This document shows, piece after piece, positions 5,246 to 40,144 of a stretch of 64,000 nt of DNA. Position 1 is the stretch's first letter. Every line of letters starts with the position of its first letter. Location: positions 36,770-100,769 of the IMG/VR virus record IMGVR_UViG_3300048672_000527. The stretch is one strand, 5' to 3'. The DNA is from a virus. The notes under the pieces were generated by a model. That model was not told the origin of the DNA. It did not search any database and saw only the letters and a list, made by a program, of their open reading frames with translations. The translations under genes were made by a program, and so were the position numbers.

Positions 5246-6163
5246 ATGACAATTACTTTAGACTCTCTGAAGAAATCTCGCAACCTAGACTTTGGTAATA
5301 TTACCAAGGCTCTGTCTAAATCAAACGAAGCATCATTCAAGAAAGATGATGACAACTACTTCAAACTGACCCGTGACAAGGCAGGCAATGGAAGTGCAGT
5401 AATTCGTTTTCTCCCAGCTGCTCCAGGTGATGAACTTCCATGGGTTCAGGTATATACTCGCGCTTTCAAAGGACCTACAGGTCGTTGGTACATAGAGAAC
5501 TGCCGTTCTACCATTGGTGAGGATGATCCAGTAAACGATTCTAACCGTATTCTATACAACTCCGGAAACGAGAAGGATAAGGAAATTGCGAAGGAGCGCA
5601 AGCGTAAGCTGGAATACCATGCGAACATTTTGGTTATTTCTGACCCAGGCAATCGTGCAAACGAAGGTAAGGTCATGCAATTTAAGTTCGGTAAGAAAAT
5701 CTGGGAAAAGATCAAGGATAAGCTGGAACCATCCTTTGAAGATGAACAACCAGTAAACGTCTTCGACCTTTGGGAAGGTGCCAACTTCAAGCTGCGTATT
5801 CGCCAGTACGAGGGTTATGGTAACTACGACCAGAGTACATTTGAGTCCCCAAGTGCCGTTGCTGAAACCGACGAAGAAATTCTCGAAATCGTTAATAAGC
5901 AAAAGCCTTTGAGTCCGCTACTTGATCCTAAGAACTTCAAGTCGTACGCTGATCTTAAGAAGAAGTTTGAGAGTGTTATCTCCGCTTCTACTGAAGCTGC
6001 CCGTAAGGCAGAACAGGAGATGGAAGATGCCCCAGTTCGTGAGTCAGCTGCTAAACCTGTAAAGGAAGCAAAGGCTCCTGCTAAGGCAAAGGTTGAAAAG
6101 ACAGCATCTCCAGATATGGAAGACGAAGATGATTCCGCATTCTTTGCGGCTATCGCTGACTAA
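5246..6163 (+). CDS. 32: Single-stranded DNA-binding protein gp32
   Basis: A 305-aa protein with the T4 gp32 layout. It has a basic N-terminal cooperativity region (SLKKSRNLD), an OB-fold core containing YHANILVISDPGNRANEGKV then KFGKKIWEKI, and a WEGANFKLRI strand. An Ala/Lys-rich linker leads to an acidic tail (PDMEDEDDSAFF) that recruits partner proteins in T4. It coats single-stranded DNA in replication, recombination and repair and works with gp59, UvsY and gp46/47, all encoded in this window. ATG 5246 was preferred to the frame start at 5177, which would overlap the previous gene. Only one cysteine (C86) is present, so the zinc site of T4 gp32 appears lost. A strong hairpin lies just beyond the stop. 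Confidence 0.92.
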   Translation: MTITLDSLKKSRNLDFGNITKALSKSNEASFKKDDDNYFKLTRDKAGNGSAVIRFLPAAPGDELPWVQVYTRAFKGPTGRWYIENCRSTIGEDDPVNDSNRILYNSGNEKDKEIAKERKRKLEYHANILVISDPGNRANEGKVMQFKFGKKIWEKIKDKLEPSFEDEQPVNVFDLWEGANFKLRIRQYEGYGNYDQSTFESPSAVAETDEEILEIVNKQKPLSPLLDPKNFKSYADLKKKFESVISASTEAARKAEQEMEDAPVRESAAKPVKEAKAPAKAKVEKTASPDMEDEDDSAFFAAIAD

Positions 6164-7750
6164 TCAGAATGAAAATAAGGAACTAAGTCTAGCATTTAGA
6201 CTTGGTTCTATATTTCTGACGGGTGGTTTAACATTCACCTGAGTAACATTTTTACTGTTACTGATATTGTTATTAACGACGGTTGGAGACGATTGAGTTT
6301 TAGAAGACTCATTTGTTTTAGCCGTCGTTTCTGCTACTGCAATACTCTTCGCCAGTTCTGCACTTTGAGCTTCACGTGGTGTAGTAGTGGGCTTGCTTGC
6401 TCTTAGTGCTGCAGCTTGTTTATCTCGTTCTTCCATGATTTTCATAGGATCATCTTGAAATAAGTCTGCTGCCTTACCACCAAGCCAGCTACCAAGTTTA
6501 TCTGCTCCTAGAGCTTTTGCACCATAATACCCAGCAGCACCAGCACCACCAACTGCAAGAGCTGGTAAAGCAACACTACCAAGTCCACGTACTGCTGTTC
6601 CTGCGAGTCCACCTAAGGCCCCTGCACCGGCGCCAGCAATACTACTAAGTCCACTTGCTGCAGATGATGCGAGTCCACCCATAGAACTCATTAGACTCAT
6701 AATGGCATTGCCGTTACTTGCACTTGGCTTGTCACCAGATGCTTTTGAGAATGGTGCTTTTAATTTACTTGTCAATGCAGACAGTAAATTACGTTTTGGG
6801 TCTTTCTTTTCCTTCTTTGTTTCCTCAGAAGATTTTGTTAGTTTCTTAAGTTCTGCTAGTTGTTCTTCGTTAAGTTTCAATAACTCCTCTTGCATACCTT
6901 CTTTAACACCACGGATGACACCATCTTTTTGTTGAGGAGATAGTGGGCCAAGTTTTCCCTCTACACCTTTGATTGCTTCATCACCAGCGTTGGTACTATT
7001 ATACAGATGCTCAAGAAGCTCGGTGATAGATGCAGCCTTATCCCCGCTTGTGGTTTTCATTGTAAAAGGAAGACCATTATCCTTCTTTTTTGTCTTTGGT
7101 GCGGCGGTCTGTTTTGGTTTATCTGCGTTCTTGAAGAAATCAAGTTCAGATACAGTTAGGCCGCCTTCCTTGTTAACGGCGTTATCATAGAACTTAAGTT
7201 CATCAAGCTTTTCGTCGTTCAAGTCAAGAGTACCACCTGAACGAGACTTGACAGCTGATTGTTCTTTCTTTAGACCGTCAATTTTCTCGCGGAGTTTAAG
7301 AATCTGGTCCGCCATTTCTAGAGAAAGTGCAGCAGCTTCCTTCTCCATCTTTGCACGTTTCTTTTTATCCGTCTCAGCATTAATCAGATTAGTACGATCC
7401 TGCCCCTCGGCACTATACTTCATCCAGTCAGCTGCTGTCTCTAGTTTCTTGGTTTCTTTTGCCTTTGCTTCTTCTTTCTTTGCTACCTTGGCATCAGTAA
7501 TTGATGCAGCCAGACCCCCGATAAATGTGTCCCCACCCTTACCAAGAAGTTGAGCTACACCCTTAGCAGTAAACATTGATTTAACATTTCCCGCCATCTC
7601 TCCTGCCTTGGCTTTCAGAAAACCCCCAGCACCAAGTGGTTTGTCAGACTTCTTTCCTTCTTTCTCGATCCGTTTGGTTAGATCAAGAACAGCTTTAATT
7701 AGTTTGTCTGATTGCTTATATTTCTTATCTTCTGTAATGATGGTAGTCAT
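6164..7750 (-). CDS. Probable tail tape measure protein (gp29-like)
   Basis: The product has 528 aa from ATG 7750; the frame is open from 7783, but 7750 directly follows the stop of the gp26 extension. It is Lys/Glu/Ala-rich and helical for the first 300 residues. It then has a Gly/Ala/Ser-rich hydrophobic stretch (about residues 360-430, including GLGSVALPALAVGGAGAAGY), then a Gln/Thr/Asn-rich end. This composition fits a tape measure, which sets tail length and resides in the tube. T4 gp29 is about 590 aa. Location immediately downstream of the frameshifted gp26 gene mirrors the chaperone-then-tape-measure order of other tailed phages. Sequence identity to gp29 is not evident by eye. A different hub protein is possible. 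Confidence 0.62.
   Translation of the reverse strand: MTTIITEDKKYKQSDKLIKAVLDLTKRIEKEGKKSDKPLGAGGFLKAKAGEMAGNVKSMFTAKGVAQLLGKGGDTFIGGLAASITDAKVAKKEEAKAKETKKLETAADWMKYSAEGQDRTNLINAETDKKKRAKMEKEAAALSLEMADQILKLREKIDGLKKEQSAVKSRSGGTLDLNDEKLDELKFYDNAVNKEGGLTVSELDFFKNADKPKQTAAPKTKKKDNGLPFTMKTTSGDKAASITELLEHLYNSTNAGDEAIKGVEGKLGPLSPQQKDGVIRGVKEGMQEELLKLNEEQLAELKKLTKSSEETKKEKKDPKRNLLSALTSKLKAPFSKASGDKPSASNGNAIMSLMSSMGGLASSAASGLSSIAGAGAGALGGLAGTAVRGLGSVALPALAVGGAGAAGYYGAKALGADKLGSWLGGKAADLFQDDPMKIMEERDKQAAALRASKPTTTPREAQSAELAKSIAVAETTAKTNESSKTQSSPTVVNNNISNSKNVTQVNVKPPVRNIEPSLNARLSSLFSF
6180..6208. terminator. Bidirectional hairpin between convergent gp32 and tail genes
   Basis: A 12-bp stem (6180-6191 with 6197-6208, one G-T wobble) closes a 5-nt loop. 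The plus side is followed by TATATTTCT, and the minus side by a TTATTTT run. It can terminate transcripts from both sides. It lies within the last codons of the minus-strand gene, only 17 nt past the gp32 stop. Confidence 0.7.
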
Positions 7751-7751
7751 T

Positions 7752-8626
7752 TTAGCCTCGCGCAGCCTTTTCGTTCTGTTCATTGATATGCTTATTCAGC
7801 ATCTCCACGTATATTTCCCGTTCAAAAGGCAACATATAATCCAAATCTGACATAGTGAAGTTATGGTGCTTCATTAATTTAAAATTCGTGTCGTAGTGAT
7901 TGAATAAGTTCTCGTGCGCGAGGCAAATTAAAAAAAACCTGCGATGCTATTGATAGCGTTCTTATTCTCAAAACCACAATGTGGGCAAGTCCACTCTGTC
8001 TTTAGTTCAATAGTGGGTATAGTCTCTATGAATTCGATAATTTTTGCAAATTCATCATCTGTTCGATTGTCCAAGAATGCAATAACCTCTTGTGTGTCTC
8101 CGTCTTTGGTGTGATATACTGTATCACCAAAGTATACGGATTCAATAGAAGATGCACAGACCTTCAATCTCTGTGCCGTTGCATCCTTTATTTCTGTAAT
8201 ATCAGATAAATCCTGCATTGAAGGATAACGCATTGTTAGTGCAAGTGAATCTGATAATTTGATATTCTTACTATGGGTATCCTTACGGATAACCTCTACC
8301 TTAGAAATATCAATCTTAATGGCGGTTTGTTTTTCACATGACTTACATGTTGCATCAACCTCTACTGATTCACCAACACTTTTACTACGGATTTGAACGA
8401 ATAGATATTCAATATCAAATGTAGTCAGGTCACCCGAGTAGTTATTCATACAGCTACGGACAACGGAATCGAGTGTGCTTAGAAGTGTTGATGTTTCTTC
8501 AGATTCTTGAGCTAATAGCAACGCCCGTTCTTCCTTGACAACAAATGGTCTAAATTTCACCTTCTTACCAGATGACGGAATAGTTACTTCATAGTAAGTA
8601 GCAGTGTCAATTTGCGATAGTTTCAT
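7752..8626 (-). CDS. gp26 with -1 frameshift extension (tail/baseplate assembly chaperone-like)
   Basis: If ribosomes slip -1 on the T8 run at 7930-7937, gp26 is extended past its TAA at 7928-7930. Reading continues through 59 further open codons to the TAA at 7752-7754. The extension includes MSDLDYMLPFEREIYVEMLN. It has no stop over its whole length and ends one base before the tape-measure start. The 0-frame reads GGT TTT TTT TAA, so the slippery heptamer is T_TTT_TTT, and a small CTCG/CGAG hairpin lies 8 nt beyond. The layout parallels lambda G/GT frameshifting upstream of the tape measure. The alternative is a separate small gene starting at an internal ATG, such as MKHHNFT at 7874 or MSDLDY at 7853; neither has a clear ribosome site. 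Confidence 0.6.
7911..7937 (-). promoter_or_regulatory. Candidate -1 ribosomal frameshift signal
   Basis: On the minus strand a run of eight T (7937-7930) spans the last two Phe codons and the first base of the gp26 stop. After an 8-nt spacer a short hairpin follows (CTCG CGCA CGAG, 7922-7911). The elements have the order and spacing of bacterial -1 slippery sites, although the stem is only 4 bp. Confidence 0.55.
7928..8626 (-). CDS. 26: Baseplate hub protein gp26-like (T4_baseplate family)
   Basis: This is the 232-aa unshifted product. The N-terminus (YYEVTIPSSGKKVKFRPF followed by VKEERALLLA) and the middle (FDIEYLFVQIRSKSVGE) match the T4 gp26/PF12322 pattern. Two CxxC pairs (CKSC near residue 100, CPHC near 220) could bind zinc. 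In T4, gp26 is a hub assembly factor. ATG 8626 was chosen over TTG 8638 because GGAG sits 6 nt upstream of it; it overlaps the end of gp16. The C-terminus AGFF lies on the slippery T run used for the proposed -1 extension. Confidence 0.82.
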   Translation of the reverse strand: MKLSQIDTATYYEVTIPSSGKKVKFRPFVVKEERALLLAQESEETSTLLSTLDSVVRSCMNNYSGDLTTFDIEYLFVQIRSKSVGESVEVDATCKSCEKQTAIKIDISKVEVIRKDTHSKNIKLSDSLALTMRYPSMQDLSDITEIKDATAQRLKVCASSIESVYFGDTVYHTKDGDTQEVIAFLDNRTDDEFAKIIEFIETIPTIELKTEWTCPHCGFENKNAINSIAGFF

Positions 8627-9017
8627 TATTAGCTCCAAGTTTCTTCTTAATCAAATCACTCAATTCGGCTGTTGTACCCGTAAACACAATAGAGTTATTT
8701 GTCACTGTTGCCGGTGTTTCTGGTGTAGGTGGTGTTATCTTTTGCTCTTTTTGGTGTGTGTCCACTACACGAGTATTCAAATCAGCTGCGGTTGTTAACA
8801 AAGTCGCCAGCACTTCATATGCCCGCGGGCTATCACTATTGCGCGCCATATCGAGAGCAAGCTCTAAAGCTTGATCTGCAGTCTTGGCAAGCCGACGCAG
8901 ATTATTACGTGCTTGTTCTGCATCTTCATGTACAGTGTTACTTTCAGCAATCACTGGCGGCAACGGGGATGGCGGGATAGGAGTTATATCAAAAACTTCA
9001 GAAATTTTATCAGTCAT
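8607..9017 (-). CDS. 16: Terminase small subunit gp16
   Basis: A 136-aa protein with the gp16 core: ARNNLRRLAKTADQALELAL, then SDSPRAYEVLATLLTTAADL as two long coiled-coil helices, and a Thr/Pro linker. It ends with a VTNNSIVFTGTTAELSDLIK segment like that near the gp16 C-terminus. gp16 forms rings that recognise concatemeric phage DNA and stimulate the gp17 motor. In T4, gene 16 lies between 15 and 17. Here gp15 and gp17 (43384 and 44106) overlap directly, and gp16 sits 35 kb away on the other strand within the tail-hub operon. It overlaps gp26 by 20 nt and the upstream tube-initiator gene by 1 nt. Confidence 0.82.
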   Translation of the reverse strand: MTDKISEVFDITPIPPSPLPPVIAESNTVHEDAEQARNNLRRLAKTADQALELALDMARNSDSPRAYEVLATLLTTAADLNTRVVDTHQKEQKITPPTPETPATVTNNSIVFTGTTAELSDLIKKKLGANNETIAN

Positions 9018-10258
9018 TATGTAGATTCCTCTTCATCAACATGTTGTTGTAGTGCAGCAGAAGCATTATTCAAATCACTTCCATTACCAGTGATCATATT
9101 ACCCAAAGAGGCGATAGAGTTCTTTAATTTAGCCGTAGCGCCAGGTACTGTATCCAGACTGCGCGATACCTGGTTAAACTGATTTCCCATAGACGAGAAA
9201 TTCACACCCAAAGAGGCAATATTACCTGGCATACCTTTAAGTCCAGCAACGACCCCAATTTTGCTTGCTGTGCCATTTAGATCAGTACGGACTTTAGCGA
9301 AAGGTTTTCCAAGACCAACCGAACTAAGGACTGTGTCGATTCCACCAAGCGTACCAGAAATAGAATTAACGGCTCCTGCAATCTGTCCCGCTGGCGCAGT
9401 AATAGCAGTTAGACTACGTCCTAGATTGGTAATACCAGAACCAAATGACACGAAGTTATTTGAAAGATCGCTGAAACTAGATAGCAAAGAACTTGCGCCA
9501 CTTATAGGTGACGTACCAAACAGACCCGCGATTGAACCAGACTGCGTACCCATTTCCGCACCAGCTTGAGAGCCGTAATTCGCCAGACTGTTCTCAATGT
9601 CTCTTGCTTCAAAGTTAAATGGCAGGCGGCCTGTATCTGTTGGTAAAGAAAGTGGGACAGTGCCGCCACCCGATGGACTTGTTGTTCCGATTGGTGTATT
9701 AACACCTCGTGTATTAGCAGAGTTTGCATCAGCAGCATACACACTTCCTGTATCGTAATCTTTAATCCAGTTCTTATACTGGAGTTGTACAGTCAAAGCA
9801 ATGACATCTTTACTATCATATGAGAGTGCAACGTCCTGAATTTGTTTTGGGTATGCATCAATCAATGTGACATTTAGAATGTCCTTATTATTCTTATCCT
9901 GTAGAACTATGTTCACATTACGCTTATATTCTTTGGCATATCCGACGAAGCGTGTTTTACGGTCATAGACTTTGTTCATCCAAGAATCAAAGAATACCTT
10001 GGCGGACATTTCATTATCTAAAATGAATGTCAACGTCACCGGTTCATACGAGATGCCATATGGCATAGTTAGATTTTCACCCCAGATTTTTGTATCTGCT
10101 GTGTCAATACTAACGCCGGGAATACTTACTGAGTTAGCAAACATGAATATGTCGGGTACATTCATACCCATGACGTTAACACGGTAGCGTGAACCGGTTG
10201 GTAAACCAACCGTGCGTACTCGGGTTTTAAAATTATCGTATGCGTCTTTTGTTGCCAT
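9017..10258 (-). CDS. 54: Baseplate tail-tube initiator-like protein (gp54-like)
   Basis: In this 413-aa protein, residues 1-170 resemble a tail-tube fold. SVSIPGVSIDTADTKIWG, then LTFILDNEMSAKVFFDSWMN and a final TVQLQYKNWIKDYD strand parallel the gp19 layout. The C-terminal 240 residues are Gly/Ser/Ala-rich with heptad-like hydrophobics. T4 gp54 has the same two-part plan (tube domain, then Gly/Ser-rich tail) and starts tube polymerisation on the gp48 cap. It abuts the upstream gene with no gap. A gp48-type protein is encoded at 12106, so the pair may be complete. The exact 48/54 assignment rests on architecture rather than clear identity. Confidence 0.62.
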   Translation of the reverse strand: MATKDAYDNFKTRVRTVGLPTGSRYRVNVMGMNVPDIFMFANSVSIPGVSIDTADTKIWGENLTMPYGISYEPVTLTFILDNEMSAKVFFDSWMNKVYDRKTRFVGYAKEYKRNVNIVLQDKNNKDILNVTLIDAYPKQIQDVALSYDSKDVIALTVQLQYKNWIKDYDTGSVYAADANSANTRGVNTPIGTTSPSGGGTVPLSLPTDTGRLPFNFEARDIENSLANYGSQAGAEMGTQSGSIAGLFGTSPISGASSLLSSFSDLSNNFVSFGSGITNLGRSLTAITAPAGQIAGAVNSISGTLGGIDTVLSSVGLGKPFAKVRTDLNGTASKIGVVAGLKGMPGNIASLGVNFSSMGNQFNQVSRSLDTVPGATAKLKNSIASLGNMITGNGSDLNNASAALQQHVDEEEST

Positions 10259-30643: not shown

Positions 30644-30837
30644 AGATTTTAGATGCCAATGGTGCGGTAATACCCACTATTGAGCGAGCAAAAAATGGTG
30701 CCATTGTTGTCAAGGACGATGGCTCGCTTAATAAATACTTGAGTGAAAAAAAGCAAGCAACGGAAGTCGTGGAACTGAGAGACAAAGTTAAACGACTTGA
30801 ATCTCTCGTAGAACAATTACTGAAAAAACATGGCTAA
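30595..30837 (+). CDS. Short coiled-coil protein (65-80 aa)
   Basis: The frame is open from ATG 30595, inside the previous gene, but the recognisable protein starts near a TTG at 30640 that overlaps the preceding TGA (TTGA). From there it reads KILDANGAVIPTIERAKNGA and ends in a heptad-rich helix (VVELRDKVKRLESLVEQLLK) suited to a trimeric or dimeric coil. Neither start has a strong ribosome site, so both are noted. It overlaps the next gene by 8 nt. A small fibre-attachment or assembly role is possible. Confidence 0.5.
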   Translation: MGPTTNSQLPRGDRCLKILDANGAVIPTIERAKNGAIVVKDDGSLNKYLSEKKQATEVVELRDKVKRLESLVEQLLKKHG

Positions 30838-31450
30838 TCTTACATACCGAAACTCAGCAACACCATCTATACCAGGGAGTACGACCGTTAAAGGACTACC
30901 TCTGAGTAATGATGAAATTGACGCCAATTTTAAAGCTATTAATGACGAAGTTGCCACCAAGGCTAATATATCTGCTTTAGCTGGTTATACACCATTAGCC
31001 GGTACAGGAGCAACAGGTATATGGGGTATCAGTATCAGTGGTAATGCTGCTACTGCAAGTTCTGTTACTGGTTCACAAGCTACTCTGTTAACTCGTCTCG
31101 AAGCCAATCTCGATAATAAGCGAGTTGTTACGGCCAGTACGACAACTACAACAATTGATTTCAATAACCCAGTTGACAAGGCCACGTTTATTAAATTGAC
31201 TATGGCTAGCAACACAACTCTGACGTTTACCAATATTCCTACAGGCGGTTCTGGTGAAGTCTTTAGCTGGACCATGGAAGTAGTCAATGATACAACTGCG
31301 GGGCGTGCATTGGCATTTGGTAATACAATTAAGTGGGCTGGTGGTATTTTGCCACCAAGAACCACCGCCGCAAATGCCGTGGATATTTGGTCATTCTTTT
31401 ACGAGAATTCTGTACTTTATGGTTCTCTAGCTATTGCTGATGCAAAATGA
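30830..31450 (+). CDS. Tail fibre/structural protein (206 aa)
   Basis: It begins MANLTYRNSATPSIPGSTTV and continues LSNDEIDANFKAINDEVATK. This NFxxI/L-type entry is common at the N-terminus of phage fibre proteins that dock on baseplates. It then has a GISISGNAATASSV strand and a C-terminal beta domain with IKWAGGILPP and DIWSFFYEN. The product at 36894 ends with a closely similar domain (VKWAGGAAPTL, RDVLGFFT), so the two share a C-terminal module. It overlaps both neighbours (8 nt and 4 nt). Confidence 0.65.
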   Translation: MANLTYRNSATPSIPGSTTVKGLPLSNDEIDANFKAINDEVATKANISALAGYTPLAGTGATGIWGISISGNAATASSVTGSQATLLTRLEANLDNKRVVTASTTTTTIDFNNPVDKATFIKLTMASNTTLTFTNIPTGGSGEVFSWTMEVVNDTTAGRALAFGNTIKWAGGILPPRTTAANAVDIWSFFYENSVLYGSLAIADAK

Positions 31451-32430
31451 GTTTAGGTAAACTTCTTTTTCGTGAAAAAACTAATGCAGCTGTTAAAACT
31501 AACACTACGTTTAATGCACCCGGAAATTTCCCGATTCCATATGGTAAAACAGTAGTTAATGTTGGCGGACGTGGTGCTAGCGGTAACACAACGACGTATC
31601 CGTATGCCAGCACTAACCCTACCACATATCCATATGTGAGTACAAACCCGTCCGCGCCTGGCAATGCATATTACAACTATGTGGCTGGTAATGATGTATA
31701 TACGACATCACCAGGTAATGCAAAATACAACACAACACCTGGAACAGCTAATTATAATTATGTAGCAGCAAGTTACCCATACGCGAGTACTAACCCTACT
31801 ACATATCCATATGCTGGTACTAATGCTACGATGTATGCAGGTGGTTCGTCCGTTGATACCGAATACTTAAATCCAGGGGCCCCACCAAATATCTATGGTG
31901 CCGCAGGACCAAATTGGGGTCCTGCTGCTTCTGTTCCATCCCCAACAACTAATACTGCCGGGGCTTCTAACGGGCCTGTGTATAGAACTATCTATACATA
32001 CTATAATGTTAATTCAACTACACCAGGTGGTCCAACATATAATACCGTAGCTGGAACAGCTAATTATAATTATGTAGCAGCAAGTTATCCGTATGCTAGC
32101 ACTAACCCTACTACATATCCGTATGCTGGTAGCAATCCTACTACATACCCGTACAGTTATACTAATCCCGCTTCATACCCATATGCAGGAACTAACCCAG
32201 CAACACCGGGAAATGCTAATTATAGTACATCCCCGGGAAATGCTAATTATAACTATATCCCTGGTAATTCAGGATCAACTGTAAATATCGGTGGGGTTAC
32301 ATTCCCAGGTGGAGCAAGTGATTCTTTAGCACCAGTTGTTCCAGATACTGCCACTATTTTACAGTATTCTGTATCAGGTTTTACAGTTACAGTGCCACCA
32401 GGGGGTTATGTCACAATTCAGAATGTTTAA
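31447..32430 (+). CDS. Tyr/Pro/Thr-rich repeat tail protein (327 aa), candidate adhesin
   Basis: After a 45-residue N-terminal segment (TFNAPGNFPIPYGKTVVNVG) the protein is built of short repeats of two kinds: TNPTTYPYAG/S and TPGNANYNY. Most of residues 50-280 is Tyr, Pro, Thr, Asn, Gly and Ala. It closes with a 45-residue beta segment (YSVSGFTVTVPPGGYVTIQN). The DNA holds an 81-bp direct repeat. Low-complexity repeats at this place in a tail operon suggest a surface-exposed fibre or adhesin tip. The four following genes encode a 2OG-Fe(II) hydroxylase, two DUF6065-like proteins and a GT60-like glycosyltransferase, so its prolines are prime candidates for modification. No homolog is recognised in the repeat region. 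Confidence 0.7.
   Translation: MSLGKLLFREKTNAAVKTNTTFNAPGNFPIPYGKTVVNVGGRGASGNTTTYPYASTNPTTYPYVSTNPSAPGNAYYNYVAGNDVYTTSPGNAKYNTTPGTANYNYVAASYPYASTNPTTYPYAGTNATMYAGGSSVDTEYLNPGAPPNIYGAAGPNWGPAASVPSPTTNTAGASNGPVYRTIYTYYNVNSTTPGGPTYNTVAGTANYNYVAASYPYASTNPTTYPYAGSNPTTYPYSYTNPASYPYAGTNPATPGNANYSTSPGNANYNYIPGNSGSTVNIGGVTFPGGASDSLAPVVPDTATILQYSVSGFTVTVPPGGYVTIQNV
31739..31819 (+). repeat. 81-bp direct repeat, copy 1
   Basis: Copy 1 of an imperfect direct repeat inside the Tyr/Pro-rich gene. It matches 32051-32131 with about six mismatches, mostly at third codon positions, so the protein repeat is under selection while DNA identity still permits recombination. Confidence 0.85.
32051..32131 (+). repeat. 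81-bp direct repeat, copy 2
   Basis: Copy 2, 312 bp downstream of copy 1. Both encode GTANYNYVAASYPYASTNPT followed by TYPYAG. Recombination between copies would delete or duplicate an in-frame 104-codon block. Confidence 0.85.
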
Positions 32431-32439
32431 GGAGTTATT

Positions 32440-33039
32440 ATGTTATTTGGAAAATTTGTTCCACGTATGGAACCTTTTTGTATATGGGGTGAAGGATTTG
32501 ATTTGGAACAATGTGATAGAATCAAACAACACGGTGAAATGTCAGAATTCATGAAGGCCAGAGTTGGTGGTCGCGGCCCCGATGATATTGGCCAACAAGA
32601 TGAAGCAATCAGAAAAACAGATATTACATGGATAGACCACAGAGAAGATACAGCATGGATTTTTAATAGGATAAATGAAATTGGTGCAATTGTAAACTAT
32701 GACAAATTTCACCTCGATTTAAAATTCTTTGACGGATTCCAATATTCTAAGTATGGAGTAGCTGGTCATTATGATTGGCACATCGACACTTTTGAAAACC
32801 CAAGAGAAGGTAATTTTAGAAAACTATCATTTTCTTTAATGCTTTCAGATCCAAATGAATATGAAGGTGGCGAATTGCTACTTTGCCCAAACGGTGATAA
32901 TAATAAGCCAATTACACTAAAACCAAAAAAGGGTGAATTGGTTGCATTTTATTCTCATGTACCACACAAAGTTGCACCTGTCACCAGTGGTGAAAGAATT
33001 ACTTTAGTAACATGGGCTCTAGGACCTAAGATAAAATGA
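32440..33039 (+). CDS. 2OG-Fe(II) oxygenase, PKHD/prolyl-4-hydroxylase type
   Basis: A 199-aa double-stranded beta-helix dioxygenase. The iron ligands are visible as H114 and D116 in HYDWHIDTF and H176 in VPHKVAPV; R186 in SGERITLVTW would bind 2-oxoglutarate. The strand FSLMLSDPNEYEGGELLL is typical of P4H/PKHD proteins. Such enzymes hydroxylate peptidyl proline or other side chains. A strong AAGGAG site precedes the ATG, and its stop overlaps the next start (ATGA). It lies 9 nt after a Pro-rich repeat protein gene and in a coupled run with a GT60-like glycosyltransferase, which suggests that the substrate is that repeat protein. T4-like aquatic phages often carry such oxygenases, with substrates unknown. 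Confidence 0.88.
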   Translation: MLFGKFVPRMEPFCIWGEGFDLEQCDRIKQHGEMSEFMKARVGGRGPDDIGQQDEAIRKTDITWIDHREDTAWIFNRINEIGAIVNYDKFHLDLKFFDGFQYSKYGVAGHYDWHIDTFENPREGNFRKLSFSLMLSDPNEYEGGELLLCPNGDNNKPITLKPKKGELVAFYSHVPHKVAPVTSGERITLVTWALGPKIK

Positions 33040-33761
33040 TTAGTATTTTTAAGAATGATATAATTGAATTTTTCTGTACACCTGATAAATTTGATGTGAT
33101 TCCCAAACCAATTCCTGCATTCAAGATGATTCCAGAATGGTTTAAAAAGATACAACCAACGAGTGCTGATAATCTAAGGGATCATGCAGGTGCAAAATCA
33201 ATGACTGCTAAAAAGTGTATGCCATTACTTGATGCAATGTCAACTGGATATATTATTCCATTATTTGCAGATATTAATGTGCGCACCAATAAGGATGGAT
33301 CCTTGATAGAAATTGGACCACCAAACTTGTTTGGTGATGTTATATCGTTTCACGACAAGGAGCAACTTGGGGGAAAAACATCACCAACATATCCAGGTAA
33401 TGCAATCAAATTTATTAACCACTGGGTTATTAAAACTGCTCCAGGTTATAGCACACTATTTGTTCCACCATTAAATCATATTGAACCACGATTCACGTGT
33501 CTTAGTGGTCTAGTTGATACTGATACGTATGTAAAGGAAGTTAATTTTCCGGCTATTTGGCACGCCAAAGATTATGACGGTCTTGTGACTGCTGGTACAC
33601 CATTAGTCACAGTTATACCTGTTAAAAGATCTGATTTAACAAGTGAAGCACCTGTCCGAGTGATGTCTGAAAAAGAACGTCTGAATATTATTAAGATTCA
33701 AAATCAACAAGCAACAAGACGTCATGTTTATACTAATAAATTGAGAGAACCTAGAAAATGA
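33036..33761 (+). CDS. DUF6065-like protein, paralog A (241 aa)
   Basis: The sequence IPAFKMIPEWFKKIQPTS, then KKCMPLLDAMSTGYIIPLFA, INHWVIKTAPGYSTLFVPPL and AGTPLVTVIPVKRSD fits a family I recall as DUF6065, uncharacterised proteins seen near oxygenases in phages and bacteria. It is probably beta-rich and cupin-like, but no metal site is certain. The gene overlaps the hydroxylase and paralog B by ATGA on both sides. The next gene is a clear paralog. A role in recognising or delivering the hydroxylase or glycosylation substrate is inferred from coupling only. Confidence 0.65.
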   Translation: MISIFKNDIIEFFCTPDKFDVIPKPIPAFKMIPEWFKKIQPTSADNLRDHAGAKSMTAKKCMPLLDAMSTGYIIPLFADINVRTNKDGSLIEIGPPNLFGDVISFHDKEQLGGKTSPTYPGNAIKFINHWVIKTAPGYSTLFVPPLNHIEPRFTCLSGLVDTDTYVKEVNFPAIWHAKDYDGLVTAGTPLVTVIPVKRSDLTSEAPVRVMSEKERLNIIKIQNQQATRRHVYTNKLREPRK

Positions 33762-34516
33762 GTTGGTTTAAAAAAGATACACCTAAGTTTAGATTTAAAT
33801 CATTTATTGGTGATTTTTCTGTAGCTACACCAGTGACAACTGCTAGTAGTATTCGGACACCGTGGATGAAAAAGCAAGATAAAGATCACAAGTTCCAGAA
33901 ATGTCCTGGAATGTTAGATTACGCGAATGCTGGATATATAATCACAGCACATGCTGATATTCACATTAAGGCTAATAAAGTAGCATGTAATGTTATCGTA
34001 GAATCCGCACATTTACCGCCACATGAAGGTGAAATGTTAATCCCAAGACCATTTGATTTTAAAATAGTCGAGGGACTTGCACCAATACAAGATGGTGTTG
34101 TAAAGTGGGCCGGGAAAATTCCACTACCATGGTCAGTTCAGGCTGACAAAGGTTGGAGCGGTTATACAATGCCAGCTCTAGTTCATTCTAATTTTTTAGA
34201 TAAAATCTTTGTTTATCCCGGCGTAGTTGATTATGATAATTTTCACACATTGAATTTTGTATTTTCGCCTATCAAAGAGTGTGAATTTACTATTCCAGCG
34301 GGAACTCCATTATTACAGATTATTCCATTCAAACGTGAAAAGGTTTTTGCTGCAGAGTGTGGTAAAGCTACGGAAAAGGAAAAAGATAAACACTTATTCA
34401 ATACTGCTTCACGGTTGAGTCATTATTACAGAAAATTTTTAAGTAGTAAGAAACAATACACAATGGAGTGCCCATATAAACACCGTGAAGTAGGCGGTGC
34501 AGATAATCTTGGCTAA
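33758..34516 (+). CDS. DUF6065-like protein, paralog B (252 aa)
   Basis: It shares with paralog A the order QKCPGMLDYANAGYIITAHA (compare KKCMPLLDAMSTGYIIPLFA), then GYTMPALVHSNF, YPGVVDYDNFHTLNFVF and PAGTPLLQIIPFKRE. The N-terminus differs and the C-terminus is longer, with KQYTMECPYKHREVG. The pair probably arose by tandem duplication. ATGA overlap joins it to paralog A, and a 20-nt overlap joins it to the glycosyltransferase. Function unknown. Confidence 0.62.
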   Translation: MSWFKKDTPKFRFKSFIGDFSVATPVTTASSIRTPWMKKQDKDHKFQKCPGMLDYANAGYIITAHADIHIKANKVACNVIVESAHLPPHEGEMLIPRPFDFKIVEGLAPIQDGVVKWAGKIPLPWSVQADKGWSGYTMPALVHSNFLDKIFVYPGVVDYDNFHTLNFVFSPIKECEFTIPAGTPLLQIIPFKREKVFAAECGKATEKEKDKHLFNTASRLSHYYRKFLSSKKQYTMECPYKHREVGGADNLG

Positions 34517-35456
34517 TATATACGTTAGTGTTTGTAGCTACCGTGATCCGTTATTATTCCAGACTGTTGCTAGTTTATTAAGTACAGTCTCTGGGAAACA
34601 CAATGTAGTAATTGGTATATTCGAGCAAACAGCACTTCAAGATTCTTTAGTTAAAACTCACCCCGAGTTACTAGAGAAATTTGACTGCACAGAAAATATT
34701 GAATATCAGAGTAGTATCAAGTTGGGGGTTCTTTACAAGAGAATTGATCCAGAATATTCTGATGGTGTTGGTTGGGCCCGAAATATTAACCAGCATCAAA
34801 TGGACCCGTCAATGTATGATTTCGTATATCAAGTTGACTCACACATGATATTTGATAAAAATTGGGATGATTTTCTAGTTCAAAACTATACTGCAGCAAC
34901 GGTTCTTGCCGGTCACAAAAATGTAATAATCACAAACACTTGTAAAGTATTTTGGTTTGAAACTGAACAGCTAATAGTTCAACCCACTGAACCAACTGGT
35001 GGGATGTGTAAATTTCAACACGAGTTCCCTAAAAATTGCATAGTGACCGCTACTGGTGTACATCGACCAGTGTGGCCATTAGAAGAAGCAAATCATTTAT
35101 TTGCAGGTAATTCATTTTTCCCTGTTTCTTGGGTCAATGAAGTCGGTAATGACCCGATTATGTTCTTTGATGGCGAAGAACATCTTTTGACACTCAGATC
35201 GTTTCTTGCCGGCTATAGAATGTACTTCAGTACTGAACTGTGGTCTTATCACTATAGAGATACACATAAATATATCACCAAACAGTGGCATGAACCGATT
35301 ACTTCTACATTAAGATATTGTAGGAATGTTCAGAGAAGTCAGAAAAGACTCAAAGAATATATTGATTCACGCTCTGATGATGAATTAAAACAATTTGCAG
35401 ATTATACGGGAATTGATTATAAGAACCGCATAATTTTAGATAAGGCACGAATATGA
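34497..35456 (+). CDS. GT60-like GlcNAc glycosyltransferase (PF11397 type)
   Basis: The 319-aa product starts at GTG 34497 (or TTG 34509), overlapping the previous gene. It has the GT-A entry NIYVSVCSYRDPLLFQTVAS, the block GVGWARNINQHQMD, the metal-binding DSH at about 114-116 (FVYQVDSHMIFDKNWDDFLV), and FFDGEEHLLTLRSFLAGYRM followed by YRDTHK. This is the layout of PF11397 proteins, which include the Skp1 GlcNAc transferase that glycosylates hydroxyproline in Dictyostelium. The neighbouring 2OG-Fe(II) hydroxylase would supply the hydroxyl group. Its stop overlaps a tail-fibre chaperone start (ATGA). Other GT-A families are possible, but the DSH context and GWARN block favour this one. Confidence 0.75.
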   Translation: MQIILANIYVSVCSYRDPLLFQTVASLLSTVSGKHNVVIGIFEQTALQDSLVKTHPELLEKFDCTENIEYQSSIKLGVLYKRIDPEYSDGVGWARNINQHQMDPSMYDFVYQVDSHMIFDKNWDDFLVQNYTAATVLAGHKNVIITNTCKVFWFETEQLIVQPTEPTGGMCKFQHEFPKNCIVTATGVHRPVWPLEEANHLFAGNSFFPVSWVNEVGNDPIMFFDGEEHLLTLRSFLAGYRMYFSTELWSYHYRDTHKYITKQWHEPITSTLRYCRNVQRSQKRLKEYIDSRSDDELKQFADYTGIDYKNRIILDKARI

Positions 35457-35872
35457 ATTCTAAATGGTACATCCGTTGTAATTTGAAAACAAAGACAGCA
35501 GAGAATTTCCAACAAATTCCAGAGACGTTTTTGAACATATCTGGTATGTCGGATTTGTCTGACGAAGACTTGGCTGACTTATCTTGGGCGGGTAACCCTG
35601 ATTACGGATTTCTTACGGAAGAGGCAGCAGTTGCTGCAAAGATTAAGGGTATTGATTATGTAAAGGGTGTTGGTAATGAACTTAGAATTCAACAGATTAG
35701 ACAAACTAGAGATGCTTTACTATACCAATCTGATGCGTTGGTATTGATCGACCGCTGGGAGACTTATACACCAGAAACCAAGGCAAAAATCTCCGAATAC
35801 CGTAAGGCGCTACGTGATTTAACAGACAATATCAACCCGGATAATTTCACATGGCCGACTCTAGCACCATAA
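35453..35872 (+). CDS. Tail fibre assembly chaperone-like protein (139 aa)
   Basis: The C-terminal half has RDALLYQSDALVLIDRWETY, then YRKALRDLTDNINPDNFTWP, the usual end of phage tail-fibre assembly (APC-type) proteins. Such chaperones fold or trimerise fibre tips. It overlaps the glycosyltransferase by 4 nt and the next membrane gene by 22 nt; the codons for FTWP contain that gene's ATG. Its coupling to the modification cassette suggests a shared client, the repeat-rich tail protein. The 178-aa product at 40146 ends in the same way. Confidence 0.7.
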   Translation: MNSKWYIRCNLKTKTAENFQQIPETFLNISGMSDLSDEDLADLSWAGNPDYGFLTEEAAVAAKIKGIDYVKGVGNELRIQQIRQTRDALLYQSDALVLIDRWETYTPETKAKISEYRKALRDLTDNINPDNFTWPTLAP

Positions 35873-36894: not shown

Positions 36895-37565
36895 TGGCCA
36901 AAATAGTTGCCGATCGTGTCTTAGAGACAAGCACCACAACTGGCACCGGAGCCTATACACTAGCTGGAGCTATTAGCGGATTCCGTGCATTCTCAGCTGT
37001 ATGTGCCAATGCCGATACAGTTGAATACTATGCCGAGGATGTTAATGCATCTGGTATGCCTGCTGGCGGGTGGGAGGTTGGTTTAGGTACCTGGGGTACA
37101 GGTGGAGTTCTAACACGAACTACAATATACCAAAGTAGTAATGCGGGGGCTGCTGTATCTTGGACTGCAGGAACACGCCGGATTGGTTTAGTAGTTCCAG
37201 CAAAATCATTACCATATCTTGATAACACCGGAAATTTGGTATTAAGTCAAGGTGCTTTAAGAGAGAAGACCGGTACAATCACCGCTAATAACATTGATTT
37301 AAGTACCGGTAATTACTTTGCACAAACAATATCTGGTTCTACCACTTTCACGGTTTCAAATACTGCTGCATCAGGAACAATCTCAAGTTTCATTTTTGAT
37401 CTCACCAACGGTGGTTCAGCTGCTATTACTTGGTGGTCTGGCGTTAAATGGGCGGGTGGTGCTGCACCAACACTAACCGCTGCCGGGCGAGATGTTCTTG
37501 GATTCTTTACACGTGACGGCGGTACTACTTGGACGGGCCTAGTATTGGGTAAGGATGTTAAGTAA
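36894..37565 (+). CDS. Tail fibre/structural protein (223 aa)
   Basis: A beta-rich Gly/Ala/Thr protein. The first 110 residues (VADRVLETSTTTGTGAYTLA, then GTWGTGGVLTRTTIYQSSN) form a module common in phage structural proteins. The last 110 resemble the C-terminus of the product at 30830, both with a (V/I)KWAGG turn and a closing FF strand. It overlaps the spanin-like gene by 1 nt and the next fibre gene by 1 nt. Confidence 0.62.
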   Translation: MAKIVADRVLETSTTTGTGAYTLAGAISGFRAFSAVCANADTVEYYAEDVNASGMPAGGWEVGLGTWGTGGVLTRTTIYQSSNAGAAVSWTAGTRRIGLVVPAKSLPYLDNTGNLVLSQGALREKTGTITANNIDLSTGNYFAQTISGSTTFTVSNTAASGTISSFIFDLTNGGSAAITWWSGVKWAGGAAPTLTAAGRDVLGFFTRDGGTTWTGLVLGKDVK

Positions 37566-40144
37566 TGTCAGTCAACGATATTATAATGTCCGCTGCTGGC
37601 GGGTCGAGTGCAACACCATACGTTGATGATGTATTTGGTACGTATATATGGACTGCACCAAATATTAATAAAGTTCCGTCTCCGAGTGATTTAACAGATA
37701 AGATCGTTAGCTATACAATCTTACCCGATGTTAATACAACCACACCAATCGCGCATCCTCGCCCCGGTTATGCTGGCCCAATAGACATTATTCTTGCGGG
37801 CAGAAGTTCTGCAGTTAACGCTTATTGGTCACCAGATGCTCAAGGTGGAACCGACGGCTCAGGACAGGTTGCTCGTTGGACGTATACATGTTTAGGCGAC
37901 GAAACTAGCTTTAGTATCACACAAACAAACAAAGATTCTAATGCTGGGATGATGGCATTGAATATTATTGGTGGTGTGAATAATGGTAAAACTTTGTGTG
38001 TTGGTTCTGCACGAGAAGGAAATAGTTATGGTGCTTCGGCAGCTGCAAATGATTTTGTTTCTTCTTCTACACTAACTACTGCCCCGCTGCAATTCAGCGG
38101 GGCTTGTAGACCATATAATGCAACAATTTCTTATTCTGATGCTACATCATATGACCCGGCGGCCCCGGCTTCTTATGGTAATGCCGCAGTCGATTTTGTA
38201 GTAGACTCGAATTTAACAATTAGATTAAACGGTTCTACAAGCCCTGGTGGTATATGGTTTAATAAAAATAATACTGATAGTTCTTTTGGTATTGCGGTCA
38301 AGACTGCACCACCTGGTAATAACTCAGCAATAAAACTGGGTGCAGCAGTATTAATTTTCCCTGCTAAGACAACAGGTAATAAATCTTTAGTTTGGGCAAA
38401 GTGCCGTAATAACTCAGTCAATAACCAACTCTTTACATCAGTAAAAAATGGGGTTTTAGTATCTGATGGTACAGCAGCGATTGCAAACTCACCTTATTTT
38501 ATTGATGCTAACGGATTAACACTTTTTAACGGAAATGCCCAAACCAATAATATGGTGGCATGGAGTTGGAAGGCAGCTCCAAACTTTCTTGATATTGTTA
38601 CATATACCGGTAACGCGATAGCAGGTAGAGCGATATCTCACACACTGGGTTCTGTTCCCGGAATGATTATTGTTAAAAGAACTGATGTTGCCGGCGGTTA
38701 TTGGAGTGTATACCACCGTGGAACGGCATCTGGTACAGAAATGTTCCTACAAACAACTAATGCACTTAGTTCATCTGCATATTTTGGTAACGGTTCGATC
38801 GGTATTGCTCCCACTTCTACTACTTTTACTATAGCAGGTAACACAGATATAAATGCATCCGGCGGATCGTATATTGCATATCTTTTCGCACATGACACTT
38901 CTGGTAATGGTATTATTCAATGTGGCACGTTTTCTGGTGCTTCCGGAACAGTAGTTAATCTTGGGTGGGAACCACAGTGGGTTCTCTGGAAAAATTCCAC
39001 AAACATTAATAGCTGGGGTATTGCAGATATTACACGCGGTATGGCAAAAACACCACAGGCAACTGCATATCTATTGGCAAATGCAGCAAGTCAAGAAGCA
39101 GCTGCATCTGGTAATATCATCGATATTAACGCTACAGGTTTTATTGCCAATCTTGGTGCTCCTGGTGACACATATATTTATATGGCAGTGCGCAGATCAA
39201 ATAAGCCACCAACAAGTGGTACACAGGTTTACAATGCAATAGCTAGAACAGGTAATGGTATAGCTACATCCATTACCGGTGTTGGATTTGCACCAGATCT
39301 AAGTTTATCCAAATCTAGAAATAATGCATCAGGTGAAACATGGTATGATAAATTAAGAGGTAAAAATTACATAATGTGGTCCTATGTAACATCAGCAGAA
39401 AATACATCTACATCTGATGGTTTAACTTCTTTTGATATGGATGGTGTTTCTGTTGGAGCTGATGCTAGTGGAGCATGGATTAATACAAATACATGGACTT
39501 TTATAAATCATTATTTCAAACGCTCACAAAATGTTTTTGATATATTGTGCTGGACCCAGACTGTTCCCGGGGCACCATTTCAATGTCAGACTATTAATCA
39601 TAGTTTAGGTGTTACTCCAGAGTTAGTTATACATAAATCACGCTCAGGGGCTGGTGACAATTGGTATGTCACAGGTAGTATATTAGGTACAGGAAATAGA
39701 TTACTTCTGAACGGGACATATGCAATTGCAGCGAATGGTGCATCCGGTAATGCTGCATATACATCAACCACAGTGACACTACCATGTGAGCAAGGGTCCG
39801 GTGCAACATACGTGGCATATCTATTTGCATCTAAAGCAGGTATATCAAAGATCGGTAGCTATACTGGGAATGGTACAACACAAACTATCAATTGTGGGTT
39901 TACCACTGGAGCACGATTTATTATGATTAAGCTTACGGATAGTACAGGTGATTGGTATGTCTGGGACACAGTAAGAGGTATTATTGCAGCAAATGATCCT
40001 CATATTTCCTTAAATACTTCAGTTGCAGAAATAACTACAGATGATTCTATTGACCCCGATACTTCTGGTTTTATAGTTAATCAATTGTCGGCTACGAATA
40101 TTAACGTATCAGCTGGTACATACATTTACTTGGCGTTTGCATAA
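37565..40144 (+). CDS. Large tail fibre protein with repeated DUF7483-like domains (859 aa)
   Basis: Several tandem units follow the pattern FDILCW/YTGNA, INHSLG, PELVIHKSR or PGMIIVKR, GDNWYV or GYWSVYH, then YVAYLFA. They occur at about residues 325-440, 450-535, 540-660, 660-760 and 765-855. This is the DUF7483-like repeat of fibre proteins in marine phages. Repeats of this sort commonly make up the receptor-binding shaft or tip. The N-terminal 300 residues are a different beta-rich region. A chaperone-like gene follows at 40146. Confidence 0.7.
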   Translation: MSVNDIIMSAAGGSSATPYVDDVFGTYIWTAPNINKVPSPSDLTDKIVSYTILPDVNTTTPIAHPRPGYAGPIDIILAGRSSAVNAYWSPDAQGGTDGSGQVARWTYTCLGDETSFSITQTNKDSNAGMMALNIIGGVNNGKTLCVGSAREGNSYGASAAANDFVSSSTLTTAPLQFSGACRPYNATISYSDATSYDPAAPASYGNAAVDFVVDSNLTIRLNGSTSPGGIWFNKNNTDSSFGIAVKTAPPGNNSAIKLGAAVLIFPAKTTGNKSLVWAKCRNNSVNNQLFTSVKNGVLVSDGTAAIANSPYFIDANGLTLFNGNAQTNNMVAWSWKAAPNFLDIVTYTGNAIAGRAISHTLGSVPGMIIVKRTDVAGGYWSVYHRGTASGTEMFLQTTNALSSSAYFGNGSIGIAPTSTTFTIAGNTDINASGGSYIAYLFAHDTSGNGIIQCGTFSGASGTVVNLGWEPQWVLWKNSTNINSWGIADITRGMAKTPQATAYLLANAASQEAAASGNIIDINATGFIANLGAPGDTYIYMAVRRSNKPPTSGTQVYNAIARTGNGIATSITGVGFAPDLSLSKSRNNASGETWYDKLRGKNYIMWSYVTSAENTSTSDGLTSFDMDGVSVGADASGAWINTNTWTFINHYFKRSQNVFDILCWTQTVPGAPFQCQTINHSLGVTPELVIHKSRSGAGDNWYVTGSILGTGNRLLLNGTYAIAANGASGNAAYTSTTVTLPCEQGSGATYVAYLFASKAGISKIGSYTGNGTTQTINCGFTTGARFIMIKLTDSTGDWYVWDTVRGIIAANDPHISLNTSVAEITTDDSIDPDTSGFIVNQLSATNINVSAGTYIYLAFA

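Follow-up and report, generated by a model that had tools for sequence, protein, structure and literature searches.

The window analyzed here, a 64,000-nucleotide (nt) part of the IMG/VR virus record IMGVR_UViG_3300048672_000527 (164,769 bases), carries at positions 31447–35872 six closely packed genes that encode a repeat-rich protein, an oxygenase, two DUF6065-type proteins (DUF-A and DUF-B), a glycosyltransferase and a tail-fiber assembly chaperone. We interpret this cassette as an operon by which a T4-like aquatic phage tailors its adhesin, with a probability of about 0.75. The six-gene packing described in the original prediction is borne out in the sequence at every open reading frame (ORF), gap and overlap: 9 nt separate the repeat-protein gene from the oxygenase gene; the oxygenase/DUF-A, DUF-A/DUF-B and transferase/chaperone junctions are ATGA overlaps; and the transferase gene, with a GTG start, overlaps DUF-B by 20 nt. 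The features are:

31447–32430, + strand: repeat protein, whole ORF, 327 residues
31447–31587, + strand: conserved N-terminal cap (N-cap) of the repeat protein, residues 1–47 (..EKTN..TTFNAPGN..IPYGK..V.GRG..GN), kept across 56 distinct cassettes
31588–31836, + strand: repeat array 1, units of the TYPYASTNPT / PGNAYYNY type (from sequence and shuffle test)
31837–32025, + strand: central non-repetitive segment, proposed variable tip (boundaries placed by eye)
32026–32256, + strand: repeat array 2 (from sequence)
32257–32430, + strand: conserved C-terminal cap (C-cap) (GVTFPGG..AP.V..T..Y....VTVP.GGYV.I), kept across cassettes
32440–33039, + strand: 2-oxoglutarate (2OG)-Fe(II) oxygenase of the PKHD / prolyl-4-hydroxylase superfamily (PF13640, E = 1.3e-20)
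33036–33761, + strand: DUF6065-type protein A (DUF-A), dUTPase-like fold (PF19541, E = 5.9e-7; phrog_7084, E = 8e-60)
33758–34516, + strand: DUF6065-type protein B (DUF-B), paralogue of A (phrog_7084, E = 5.9e-23)
34497–35456, + strand: PF11397 (GT60-type) glycosyltransferase with DSH and GEE motifs (PF11397, E = 2e-23)
35453–35872, + strand: tail-fiber assembly chaperone (Phage_tail_APC PF16778, E = 1.8e-8; tail fiber PHROGs)

The same set of genes recurs as a unit in other viruses. Single-sequence scans with the transferase or the repeat protein returned no relatives, and a two-sequence alignment (transferase) and a cap alignment (repeat protein) were needed, the whole-protein repeat alignment being too variable to serve as a scan seed; all ORFs of the recovered loci were labeled with purpose-built profiles, and the presence counts cover loci with enough upstream sequence. 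The transferase-only scan yielded 69 viral loci, in which DUF-B was adjacent upstream in 65/65, DUF-A was present in 62/62, the oxygenase in 61/61 and the repeat protein in 55/55, always in the same order. The proposed co-occurrence of oxygenase and transferase was therefore found throughout, and with the transferase also placed in PF11397, the genomic pattern that would have refuted the original prediction did not appear. Wherever it could be tested, the repeat protein stood among tail genes; 50 of the 55 repeat proteins also match the C-cap profile. Many of these loci are near-copies of one another; the transferases still form 13 clusters at 60% identity and 26 at 85%. Close coupling is also general, with a junction of −4 nt between DUF-A and DUF-B in 136/167 pairs (median −4) and between DUF-B and the transferase in 121/140. 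A scan seeded with DUF-A recovered the oxygenase in 79/79 cassettes and the repeat protein in 68/68. Because the transferase was present in only 58/80, the core of the cassette is the repeat protein, oxygenase, DUF-A and DUF-B, and the transferase is an add-on. The oxygenase thus lacks a transferase partner in 22/80 cassettes, and every testable transferase locus of the scan has an oxygenase (61/61); the closest DUF-A relatives of the window (L091–L099) have no transferase. Among the cultured phages in the searched collection none carries the cassette, and neither a DNA search nor tblastn with the transferase and the repeat protein gave a match in cultured phages. A 4.4-kb contig binned as Chitinophagaceae (L244, DOMR01000007.1) harbors the cassette complete with its transferase, which hints weakly at hosts among the Bacteroidota or at a phage binned wrongly.

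The repeat protein comprises two arrays flanking a non-repetitive center, enclosed by the two caps. Repeated 6-mers cover 62 of its positions, against a mean of 0.08 and a maximum of 6 in 2000 shuffles, so the repeats lie far beyond chance; arrays 1 and 2 share an exact block of 26 residues (residues 99–124 and 203–228). Threonine accounts for 15% of the protein, tyrosine for 12.2%, and proline and asparagine for 11.9% each. The TNPTTYPYA repeats originally described are real as repeats, but that exact string occurs only twice, and the looser pattern [TS]NP[TA][TS]YPY five times. Among the 56 distinct cassettes, the middle of the protein is fully divergent in both unit and length, with both caps still recognizable; in relatives, the center keeps its position between two arrays, differs in sequence in each phage and frequently contains a Cys-Pro...Cys pair. 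AlphaFold models the caps with good confidence, at a mean predicted local distance difference test score (pLDDT) of 76–89 for residues 21–50 and 78–88 for the C-cap, and the remainder of the protein with low confidence. Fold searches with the repeat-protein model gave nothing useful, and PF21722 (Gly_rich_2) matched neither the window repeat protein nor three relatives.

A scan with the N-cap returned 15 loci: 12 within the cassette, two glycine-rich relatives (L253 and L258), and L250. In the bridging relatives L258, L188 and L208, a like N-cap precedes glycine-rich repeats. An upstream tail gene (30830–31450) shares an ATGA overlap with the repeat gene; further neighbors in the window are T4-like genes for baseplate wedge, tail sheath and major head protein, and the last gene of the run is a tail-fiber chaperone, as predicted. 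Given its architecture, its position between tail-fiber genes and the fiber chaperone, and relatives such as L258, L188 and L208, the repeat protein is probably a tail-fiber adhesin with a base, a stalk and a variable tip. Shortly downstream, the window encodes an 859-residue DUF7483 tail-fiber-type protein (37565–40144), a possible second fiber.

Turning to the enzymes, the family assignment of the oxygenase is firm, and residues H114, D116, H176 and R186 are all present. The HxD...H...R motif for iron and 2OG is intact in 163/163 cassette oxygenases, despite complete divergence of the repeats. In profile comparisons, the oxygenase lies nearest PKHD-type PiuC (3.7e-15) and true prolyl 4-hydroxylases (P4H), among them that of PBCV-1 (2e-10); the enzyme may act on peptidyl proline, the leading candidate residue. 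The transferase matches PF11397 over residues 8–294, placing it within the GT60-type family as proposed, and its DSH and EE motifs are invariant in 26 representative transferases. Because homologous transferases begin about five residues later than the GTG start at 34497, the TTG at 34509 is plausibly the true start. Compared as a profile with the PDB, the transferase had no solved-structure relative by sequence. With a second cassette transferase as query, the only matches were jumbo-phage genes of 21% identity; the one annotated case lies in an unrelated setting, adjoining a carbamoyltransferase. Its family membership makes transfer of N-acetylglucosamine (GlcNAc) to hydroxyproline or to Thr/Ser of a polypeptide a possible activity of the window transferase.

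The DUF6065-like identity of both paired proteins holds, DUF-A by PF19541 (29.7 bits, cut-off 26.6) together with phrog_7084, and DUF-B by phrog_7084 alone, which it has in common with DUF-A; DUF-B has no DUF6065 match in Pfam. The AlphaFold2 model of DUF-A (pLDDT 93.9) finds dUTPases as its best structural matches (Foldseek E = 1.7e-4; template modeling score up to 0.74 normalized to the target, about 0.4 to the query). By eye, DUF-A contains segments resembling motifs II, III and IV (S139, D161-D163-Y165, AGTP) and no C-terminal glycine-rich motif V; the match of DUF-B to the Pfam dUTPase family is weak (E = 0.14). A reading of DUF6065 as a plain dUTPase was dropped as the less probable one, since DUF6065 tracks adhesin-like genes in three settings. 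DUF6065 is named in no paper that we found in the open-license literature.

Several cassettes carry additional modules. A Sulfotransfer_2 gene lies in or beside the cassette in five loci (L006:6673–7380, L148:6664–7356, L163:7338–7970, L179:8594–9217 and L147:3303–4175), and extra 2OG oxygenases occur in L091 and L153. Genes of about 250 residues with no significant Pfam match stand in three cassettes (L006:5949–6692, L148:5915–6670 and L082:8923–9660), where their position suggests further tailoring roles. A related oxygenase and DUF-A also adjoin glycine-rich proteins with a like N-cap; in L258, genes that by eye resemble ATP-pyrophosphatases (SGGYGS / SGGVDS motif; 7563–8306, 8848–9717 and 9743–10234) are interleaved with an oxygenase and adjoin a glycine-rich adhesin. 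Oxygenase relatives in loci lacking DUF6065 have a glycine-rich or repeat gene within five genes in 25/39 distinct loci versus 28/144 background windows, the windows being not fully independent. In the cyanophages syn9, S-RIM44, P-TIM40 and S-CREM1 (L016–L019), the genes of glycine-rich tail proteins, all three of those tested matching PF21722, stand directly ahead of genes for flavin (tryptophan) halogenases, proteins of DUF6065 type and a number of 2OG/JmjC oxygenases, an arrangement suggesting that the tail protein may be a substrate of the halogenases; the cyanophage DUF6065 genes of S-RIM4 and Sf-CH5 lie outside such clusters. In hafunaviruses, DUF6065 is found near a protein with 25% glycine that fits a published adhesin and host-range determinant. 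The original prediction had correctly recognized a repeat-rich protein, the DUF6065 pair, an oxygenase and a transferase, but overlooked the end caps and variable center of the first, the near-invariant place of the second in the cassette, and the sulfotransferase and halogenase variants.

That the same small gene set occurs in many uncultured water phages suggests chemical decoration of a host-gripping protein. We infer that these enzymes act on the repeat protein and that the modified product is part of the virion. The two conserved caps would form the base, the two repeat arrays the stalk, and the variable center the tip that faces the receptor. While virions assemble, the 2OG-Fe(II) oxygenase would hydroxylate side chains of the repeats, and the GT60-type transferase would be expected to add a sugar to the repeats. 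The DUF6065 pair, with its dUTPase-like fold, may help by specifically binding or chaperoning the adhesin, or as another accessory factor dedicated to it. Elsewhere in the family, cassettes would add sulfation by a sulfotransferase, further oxygenase reactions or, in cyanophages, halogenation by flavin enzymes. The likely benefit would be a stiff, protease-resistant and chemically variable stalk that tunes adsorption. Several points weigh against this interpretation. The repeat arrays are modeled at low confidence by AlphaFold, and tight linkage alone could reflect co-inheritance. In L250, a tail chaperone comes directly after the repeat protein (5995–6894), and neither an oxygenase nor a DUF6065 gene is present anywhere in the 129-kb record; this is possibly a natural loss, so either the modification is not always needed or the record is incomplete. 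DUF6065 genes also lie close to those for ribonucleotide reductase or thymidylate synthase in hafunaviruses, and two halovirus DUF6065 genes do so too, consistent with a role in nucleotide metabolism. We know of no mass spectrometry of any family member.

Within adhesin tailoring, two chemistries can be set against each other as sub-cases, the likelihoods of which overlap with that of the whole. The oxygenase could generate 4-hydroxyproline in the repeats and the transferase add α-GlcNAc to it, as for Skp1. This route agrees with the GT60-type family match, with an oxygenase profile nearest PKHD and P4H enzymes, with the retention of proline in every repeat protein, and with a dual-function P4H/GlcNAc-transferase reported in a plant pathogen; the transferase is also always accompanied by the oxygenase, the very pairing that the route predicts. 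Composition, however, argues the other way: repeat proteins with and without the transferase contain 12.7 and 13.4% proline (p = 0.76, kinship not corrected), those with it have fewer NP and PG motifs and more asparagine, and L148 keeps oxygenase, transferase and sulfotransferase beside a repeat protein with only 4.4% proline. After this comparison, a proline-rich sequence was dropped as proof of hydroxyproline, and of the GlcNAc-on-hydroxyproline proposal the enzyme pairing stands, whereas proline as target, GlcNAc as sugar and attachment to hydroxyproline are not established, in view also of the 22 cassettes with an oxygenase and no transferase and of the mucin-type members of GT60. We regard this route as doubtful. 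Only slightly more likely is that the two decorations are independent, with the transferase acting on Thr/Ser, like the Trypanosoma cruzi GT60 mucin enzyme, and the oxygenase on Pro, Asn or Tyr for stiffness. The mucin-type polypeptide α-GlcNAc transferases of GT60, the threonine content of the window repeat protein and the frequent occurrence of the oxygenase by itself favor such a split. Yet Ser+Thr is lower, and threonine not enriched, in transferase-bearing repeat proteins (17.0 vs 20.3%, kinship not corrected), and the transferase always has the oxygenase beside it.

Two further explanations dispense with adhesin modification. The enzymes could be auxiliary metabolic genes that act on host metabolites (2OG balance, nucleotide pools or surface glycans) and merely reside in a variable tail locus, which accords with the published view of cyanophage 2OG oxygenases and with the dUTPase-like fold of DUF6065; the fixed gene order, ATGA-type coupling, constant partnership with one adhesin-like family and enrichment of oxygenase relatives beside glycine-rich genes make this unlikely. 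Alternatively, the DUF6065 proteins and the oxygenase could be folding chaperones for the adhesin and leave no lasting covalent modification. A chaperone gene does follow the cassette, and the hafunavirus DUF6065 near a glycine-rich adhesin has no 2OG oxygenase annotated beside it, but catalytic motifs are kept in every oxygenase and transferase examined, and we consider this explanation very improbable.

Glycosylated phage virions are already known, and so is prolyl hydroxylation in viruses. The nearest parallel is the Skp1 prolyl hydroxylation and GlcNAc pathway of Dictyostelium and Toxoplasma (PhyA and the GT60 enzyme Gnt1; PMC6939170, PMC8724618), in which a P4H-superfamily oxygenase and a transferase of the PF11397/GT60 type likewise work as a pair on a protein; it differs in that its target is a single defined proline in a protist protein, an intracellular subunit of a ubiquitin ligase, whereas the cassette combines a phage repeat adhesin with a DUF6065 pair. 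GT60 holds both the Skp1 hydroxyproline enzyme and the Thr-directed mucin-type polypeptide GlcNAc transferases. Mycobacteriophages bear glycans on virion proteins (Freeman 2023, as cited in PMC12619734), but on the C-termini of capsid and tail-tube proteins, and the citing passage mentions no oxygenase or DUF6065. Chloroviruses, which infect eukaryotic algae, encode a P4H, and the citing text reports evidence for hydroxyproline in viral proteins (Eriksson 1999, as cited in PMC9301287). The Gp38-type polyglycine adhesins of T4-like phages and the hafunavirus adhesins (PMC8651126) are similarly repeat-rich, with variable segments, and lie beside tail genes, DUF6065 being near the hafunavirus one; the cassette repeats are instead rich in Pro, Asn, Thr and Tyr and linked to modifying enzymes. 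The cyanophage clusters resemble the cassette in that DUF6065 and 2OG oxygenases come immediately after Gly_rich_2 tail proteins, and differ in their halogenases, several to eight oxygenases and lack of an annotated PF11397 transferase. To our knowledge, the chlorovirus P4H has no link to a repeat adhesin and a GT60 transferase. The claim that no phage system of this kind had been described agrees with our search, in which the coupled operon was not found in open-license papers, an absence that is no proof.

We lean, by a modest degree, toward a broad class of phage operons whose linked enzymes, aided by DUF6065 proteins, hydroxylate receptor-binding proteins of the repeat or glycine-rich kind and afterwards glycosylate, sulfate or halogenate them. 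2OG-Fe(II) oxygenases are numerous in aquatic phages and are described in published accounts as metabolic or unexplained; their physical and evolutionary linkage to adhesin-like proteins offers a concrete, testable role. If this is true, the 2OG oxygenases that have lacked an explanation in aquatic phages, together with the halogenases of these viruses, would be adhesin-maturation enzymes and not metabolic genes, a protist-type hydroxylation–glycosylation enzyme pair would be placed in phages, and chemical decoration would provide phages with a further route, beside sequence variation, to tune adsorption.

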